Assembly: GCA_023055355.1 (NCBI GenBank)
Contig: JALJCS010000001.1
Span: 74,999,381-75,063,380, forward strand
Length of the DNA stretch: 64,000 nucleotides
From: Agelaius tricolor
Lineage: Eukaryota > Chordata > Aves > Passeriformes > Icteridae
Direction of reading: 5' to 3'
Numbering within the stretch: the stretch's first letter is position 1; each line of letters begins with the position of its first letter. The notes under the pieces were generated by a model. That model did no database searches. It saw only the letters and a list, made by a program, of their open reading frames with translations, and was not told the DNA's origin. Of this stretch, positions 22,594 to 22,933 are shown piece by piece. Made by a program: the position numbers and the translations under genes.

Positions 22594-22933
22594 CTTTCTG
22601 TGTGGAATGAGCATTTTTTGTGTCCTAGGCATGGATGAAGTGTCCTGGCTGGAGATCAGGGGAATGATGCATTGGTGTGGAAGCCAGTGGGGTTGGAGTA
22701 GGGGTTGCCCCACCTGAAGCAGTAGCTGCAGTAACATCAGGGCCCAGTTCAGGTGGAAACACTCCTCACACCATCCCTGTAACTCTGGTGTCAGCTGCTT
22801 CCAGTGCCCAGCTACCTCTCAGTGAAGGTTCTCCATGCCACAGCTGGAATTTCTTCCAGCAGCAGGCTGGAGGGCAGCTGTGTCTGGCAAACCCTGCTGG
22901 CCCACAGGAGATGGGGTTCATATAAGTCATCCA
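22594..22933 (+). pseudogene. PUM2: Decayed ancestral N-terminal exon of PUM2
   Basis: A pyrimidine-rich tttttctttttag acceptor ends at 22593, and a CCA|gtaggt donor begins at 22934. From ATG 22607 the first frame reads MSIFCVLGMDEVSW, like the PUM1 start MSVACVLKRKAVLW. Around 22671-22677 the likeness moves to another frame: IPVTLVSAASSAQL (PUM1 MPVVLTSGTGSQAQ) and FFQQQAGGQL (PUM1 FFQRQHGEQL). Near 22881 it returns to the first frame and ends WPTGDGVHISHP at the donor (PUM1 WPTGDNIHAEHQ). In PUM1 the next residues are VRSMDELNHDFQ; in this gene the next exon starts VRSVDEMNHEFQ, in phase 0. The first-frame ORF stops at the TGA of 22715-22717. The exon could survive as a 5' UTR exon. A sequencing error could mimic one shift but hardly two. 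PUM1 residues are from memory. Confidence 0.78.

Follow-up and report, generated by a model that had tools for sequence, protein, structure and literature searches.

The 64-kb stretch of DNA analysed here (the window, taken at its full length) carries the beginning of PUM2 and stops short of the 3' end of the gene. A human PUM2 probe served to locate the PUM2 exons of the window, and between a GC-rich promoter region (GC 0.76 at 17001-18000) and the exon that begins with VRS lies the sequence with which this study is concerned. It had been proposed, in a reading made from the sequence alone, that this is a broken ancestral N-terminal exon of PUM2 which is still flanked by splice signals, and our comparison with intact PUM2 orthologues upholds this view. 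The same sequence-only reading had placed an upstream exon end at 17548, and a donor is indeed present at that site. The features of the locus are as follows.

17500..17548, + strand: 3' end of what is presumably the first, non-coding exon of PUM2, with the donor CCC/GTGAGT at 17549; 17500 is the start of the printed stretch and not the 5' end of this exon.
22594..22933, + strand: PUM2 N-terminal coding exon, very probably decayed, as judged from frameshift-tolerant alignment to five PUM2 proteins, null scores and splice-site scores.
22607..22717, + strand: ancestral start codon, from which a 36-codon open frame now runs to a TGA; a candidate uORF if the exon is spliced in.
22672..22673, + strand: firm frame change with a net loss inferred as 8 bases; of the kiwi PUM2 residues between H23 and G27, A and N are gone together with most of I.
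22823..22834, + strand: probable frame change with an inferred net loss of 5 bases; a codon is missing after 22823 and two bases at 22833 (penalties 8 and 10 only).
22849..22850, + strand: probable frame change with an inferred loss of 1 base; the tyrosine codon of VGYFFQ is reduced to two bases (only at penalties 8 and 10).
22878..22888, + strand: firm frame change with an inferred net loss of 7 bases; CTGTG stands against L of kiwi, and Y-S-S is missing.
22835..22933, + strand: internal ATG, the frame of which stays open across the donor and on into VRSVDEMNHEFQ; a possible 39-residue novel extension with a weak start context.
38865..38933, + strand: next PUM2 exon (VRSVDEMNHEFQALALESRGMGE), with the presumed translation start at ATG 38883.

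From the ATG at 22607 the exon reads MSIFCVLGMDEVSWLEIRGMMH and then stays open until the TGA at 22715-22717. GVEASGVGVGVAPPEAV...IPVTLVSAASSAQLPLSEGS and FFQQQAGGQL lie in a second frame, after which the first frame resumes with WPTGDGVHISHP and ends at the donor; these are the four blocks that had been described, and they follow each other in the order claimed. The exon is bordered by an acceptor (...TTTTTAG/CTTT) before 22594 and by the donor CCA/GTAGGT at 22934, and the further statements made about this gtaggt donor are borne out as well, the distance from ATG to donor being 327 bases and the join to VRSVDEMNHEFQ at 38865 being in phase 0. In a frameshift-tolerant protein alignment, 22607-22930 matches residues 1-116 of kiwi PUM2 over its full length, the first 22 codons corresponding to PUM2 residues 1-23, and the exon aligns likewise with the intact PUM2 of ostrich, loggerhead turtle, Buteo and coelacanth. 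Residues 1-117 of kiwi PUM2 score 302 against the exon alone (penalty 12), and 400 shuffles of the exon, made by a simple dinucleotide-keeping walk, gave a mean of 31.9 with an SD of 5.0 and a maximum of 51. When overlapping 700-base tiles of both strands of the 64-kb window were scored, three of the 362 exceeded 53 and all three touch the exon, which is the single locus within the window that matches the PUM2 N-terminus.

A protein search, for which the query consisted of the frame-joined exon and 24 residues of the following exons, returned PUM2 N-termini as the top matches, namely those of kiwi (E 7.9e-41), ostrich (5.2e-39), rhea (4.9e-38) and emu (7.0e-38), with turtles from 4.6e-36 and crocodile at 3.4e-35 (best 120 of 563 matches). 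The likeness had previously been drawn to PUM1; while the exon does resemble a Pumilio N-terminus, its best match is PUM2 itself (302 with the full scorer), and on a slightly simpler version of the frameshift-tolerant scorer kiwi PUM2 reaches 298 and ten other PUM2 proteins 172-281, as against 67 for a human PUM1 N-terminus. Among the same best 120 of 563 matches, the N-terminus is carried by two kiwis, ostrich, rhea, emu, turtles, crocodilians, lacertid lizards, caecilians, lungfish, coelacanth and one neognath, Buteo japonicus, and a second search (best 120 of 142) added frogs. In palaeognaths, crocodilians, turtles, caecilians, frogs, lungfish and coelacanth the exon occupies the same place in the protein and has the start region MSI.CVL.GM.EV.W, and in the relatives a well-kept block running from MSIPCVLLGMNEVAWQETRGMMH to KHRWPTGDSIHVDHS is followed directly by VRSVDEMNHEFQ or a near equivalent (VCSVDEM in kiwi and rhea, IRSVDEM in emu). 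Starting no later than MMH or its equivalent, the extension is seen in 122 of 122 protein records, in the portions displayed; the records were chosen for that. Upstream of MSI the window reads FLCG-MSI, and some turtle models have FLRG-MSI at the same place. The exon is the orthologue of the PUM2 N-terminal exon: homology extends over its whole length, PUM2 is preferred over PUM1, and position, strand, splice borders and phase all fit, the borders in the relatives having been read from protein only. The lacertid PUM2 models start at MNEV or MMHV, without MSIPCVLLG; these short starts may be a matter of annotation only, because some turtle and alligator models also start at MNEV.

Compared with the exon of these relatives, that of the window is damaged. 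There is no open frame from ATG 22607 to the donor, the path being interrupted by the TGA at 22715-22717 and by two to four frame changes, and against the 117 codons (351 bases) of kiwi the 327 bases of the window are 24 bases short. At penalties 12 and 16 the aligner placed two frame changes with each of the five PUM2 proteins, and at penalty 8 it placed four; with kiwi PUM2 it also placed four at penalty 10. With four changes placed, the net losses amount to 8 bases after 22672, 5 in 22823-22834, 1 at 22849-22850 and 7 in 22878-22888, and one whole codon is also missing after 22624; all of these are net differences inferred from protein alignment. Two frameshifts had been claimed before, and these, which the alignments put at 8 and 7 bases, are firm and lie where they had been placed, although the total is probably four through an additional, self-cancelling pair. 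The middle pair (5 and 1 bases) depends on the milder penalty, being seen only at penalties 8 and 10; with it the frame is back after about 17 bases, and the AT(V/A)G of DDATVGYFF, where Buteo reads ATAG, is recovered.

It had also been noted that the shifts cancel. The net losses do sum to a multiple of three, but this is no sign of selection, because random indels do so about one third of the time, and selection for a cancelled frame was dropped as an explanation. Stop codons are absent from the 107 codons aligned with kiwi, a point that speaks against a loss of the coding role. In a neutral simulation to the same identity, 252 of 1000 runs were likewise free of stops, so that the lack of stops says nothing on the recency of the loss, and the idea of a recent loss was dropped on this ground.

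The N-terminal residues of the window agree with those of kiwi at 74/107 positions, of ostrich at 74/107, of Buteo at 64/97 and of softshell turtle at 73/107, whereas kiwi and softshell turtle, a far more distant pair, are alike at 113 of 117. Over the next 176 PUM2 residues the window does not differ at all from ostrich, Buteo or softshell turtle (176/176), and kiwi and emu each differ from it by 1 residue and rhea by 2. On a fixed species tree, and at the protein level only, the window has an N-terminal branch of 0.334 and Buteo one of 0.123; the stem that the two share measures 0.048, and the tips of the four palaeognaths measure 0.00-0.07. For the PUM2 body, that is the next 176 residues, the branch of the window is essentially 0; in this tree the program regrouped identical sequences, and its tiny branches mean only that there was no change. 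At 61 columns that are invariant in 10 species, the window has 13 changed and 5 gapped, Buteo 6 changed and 7 gapped and Podarcis 5 changed and 7 gapped. Speed of change alone is no proof of loss, since Podarcis, a lizard in which the N-terminus is annotated as coding, also has a long N-terminal branch (0.18). This branch may mark a second lineage with relaxed constraint. Taken against the exon of the relatives, the window combines the 24-base shortening and the frame changes, two of them firm and probably four in all, with changes at about 31% of the residues. On these protein comparisons, the exon has diverged like non-coding sequence, and the purifying selection that has acted on it in the relatives is not apparent here.

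The locus therefore holds an exon that matches PUM2 in homology, place and phase, is damaged in its frame and has diverged fast compared with the 176 residues that follow. We infer that it is very probably an in-place orthologue of the PUM2 N-terminal exon that has lost its coding role, and that PUM2 of this bird presumably begins at MNHEFQ. According to this interpretation, the exon would originally have coded for the first ~117 residues of PUM2, as it does in palaeognaths, crocodilians, turtles, amphibians and lobe-finned fish. Deletions that break the frame and numerous amino-acid changes would then have built up in the lineage of this bird, which is most likely a neognath, with the neighbouring part of PUM2 remaining nearly unchanged, and translation would presumably start at the MNHEFQ ATG (38883) in the next exon. 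The exon itself would either still be spliced into the 5' UTR, with the 36-codon uORF starting from the old ATG, or simply be skipped. It had been described as being part-way through loss; as protein-coding sequence the loss looks finished, although both splice sites remain. Human PUM2 likewise is without the long N-terminus and starts, at MNHDFQ, in the VRS exon, though this concerns a separate lineage.

The two remaining splice sites bear on the possibility that the exon has been reused as a 5' UTR cassette, in which the 36-codon uORF would lower translation of PUM2 or trigger decay. We consider this conceivable, though somewhat doubtful. Both acceptor and donor are kept and score at about the 93rd percentile of the AG and of the GT sites in the window, respectively, by consensus frequencies, and the old ATG at 22607 has a G at -3 and a frame that closes with 216 bases of the exon still to follow. 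However, among the PUM2 sites that were scored, every other donor and all but one of the other acceptors rank higher, and both sites may be relics. No Pumilio-response element was found in the exon, and a search of Rfam at gathering thresholds gave no match in the 64-kb window. A more far-reaching proposal, namely that neognaths have made the exon a translational control in which splicing sets the level of PUM2 via the uORF or the 39-residue extension, must be regarded as speculative and improbable.

It is very improbable that the exon now encodes a shorter, remodelled extension starting from ATG 22835, in which MPQLEFLPAAGWRAAVSGKPCWPTGDGVHISHP would be joined to VRSVDE-MNHEFQ and the WPTGD block would be kept. 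The frame of this ATG is open through the donor into PUM2, but it has a T at -3, which is a weak context, and earlier ATGs precede it. The last block, which such an extension would retain, is moreover the least conserved of five segments, with 10/17 residues identical against 17/22 in the first, and its conservation as a sign of use is not supported.

Even less probable, to the extent that we rule it out as the cause of the frame changes, is that the exon is intact in the organism and that assembly or sequencing errors have broken it. A sum of net losses that is a multiple of three and aligned codons without stops would agree with such errors, but the firm changes are net 8 and 7 bases and not single-base homopolymer slips, and errors of this kind would not yield 33 amino-acid differences from kiwi in 107 residues when the next 176 differ by 0-2 from four palaeognaths; the deletion sizes and the excess of substitutions are thus what make this explanation so unlikely. 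A chance or low-complexity likeness to Pumilio N-termini is practically inconceivable, as it is refuted by the null distributions, in which the best shuffle reached 51 while the exon scores 302, by the E value of 7.9e-41 and by position, strand and phase, which are all correct.

Returning to the loss of the coding role, the closest comparison is offered by PUM2 of Buteo japonicus, a database protein model from a neognath that is also diverging fast (branch 0.12). Four residues are common to Buteo and the window and occur in none of eight palaeognath, crocodilian and turtle sequences, although one of them (column 125) occurs in a caecilian too; when each of the eight is paired with the window in place of Buteo, and Buteo is added to the sequences excluded, ostrich has 2 such residues and the remaining seven have none. 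The bird of the window is accordingly most likely a neognath, and decay may have begun on or near the neognath stem, as judged from one other neognath. Unlike that of the window, the Buteo exon is annotated as open and in frame, which may be the work of an automatic model that bridges damage. Because of this annotation the loss cannot be taken as general in neognaths, and any neognath-wide claim rests on two sequences, one of which is annotated open. That Buteo is the only neognath among the matches listed is weak evidence, because the protein database was clustered at 90% identity (one cluster comprises 298 sequences) and clusters or matches beyond those listed may hide neognaths. At residues 70-71 of the Buteo protein, ten residues that are conserved in palaeognaths (VQVPLSGRSQ) are missing, which may be a real deletion or an artefact of bridging in the gene model.

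In the open-access literature, searched with limited wording, we found no paper describing the loss of the PUM2 N-terminal exon. In Drosophila Pumilio, the major repression activity has been located in the N-terminal region, and the function of RD3 is conserved in human PUM1 and PUM2 (PMC9418443). N-terminal fragments of human PUM1 and PUM2 that are proximal to the RBD have been reported to differ in their effects on RNA binding (PMC11981137). The passages of these two papers considered here do not concern the 117 PUM2 residues as such. A similar distribution has been reported for STK33, which is intact in palaeognaths and has decayed in place to a unitary pseudogene in neognaths (PMC4509753); in that case, however, a whole gene was lost, whereas here a single coding exon would be affected and the compared rest of PUM2 is almost unchanged. 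If the end of about 117 residues that has been kept from coelacanth to kiwi was indeed dropped in this bird, this happened with no visible change in the next 176 residues, and the role of the Pumilio N-terminus thereby becomes testable through a natural experiment, the comparison of palaeognath with neognath PUM2. It also calls for caution before the short PUM2 that starts at MNHEFQ is treated as the vertebrate standard.

Two further open frames lie upstream in the window. The one at 16473-16904 on the + strand has no match in Pfam, and we take it to resemble the 3' end of a CR1/jockey-type reverse transcriptase. The other, at 2348-3202 on the - strand, matches the Pfam family AA_permease_2 (E 9.5e-34) and belongs to a gene for an amino-acid transporter that lies upstream of PUM2 on the opposite strand, presumably SLC7A15 as judged from the gene neighbourhood.
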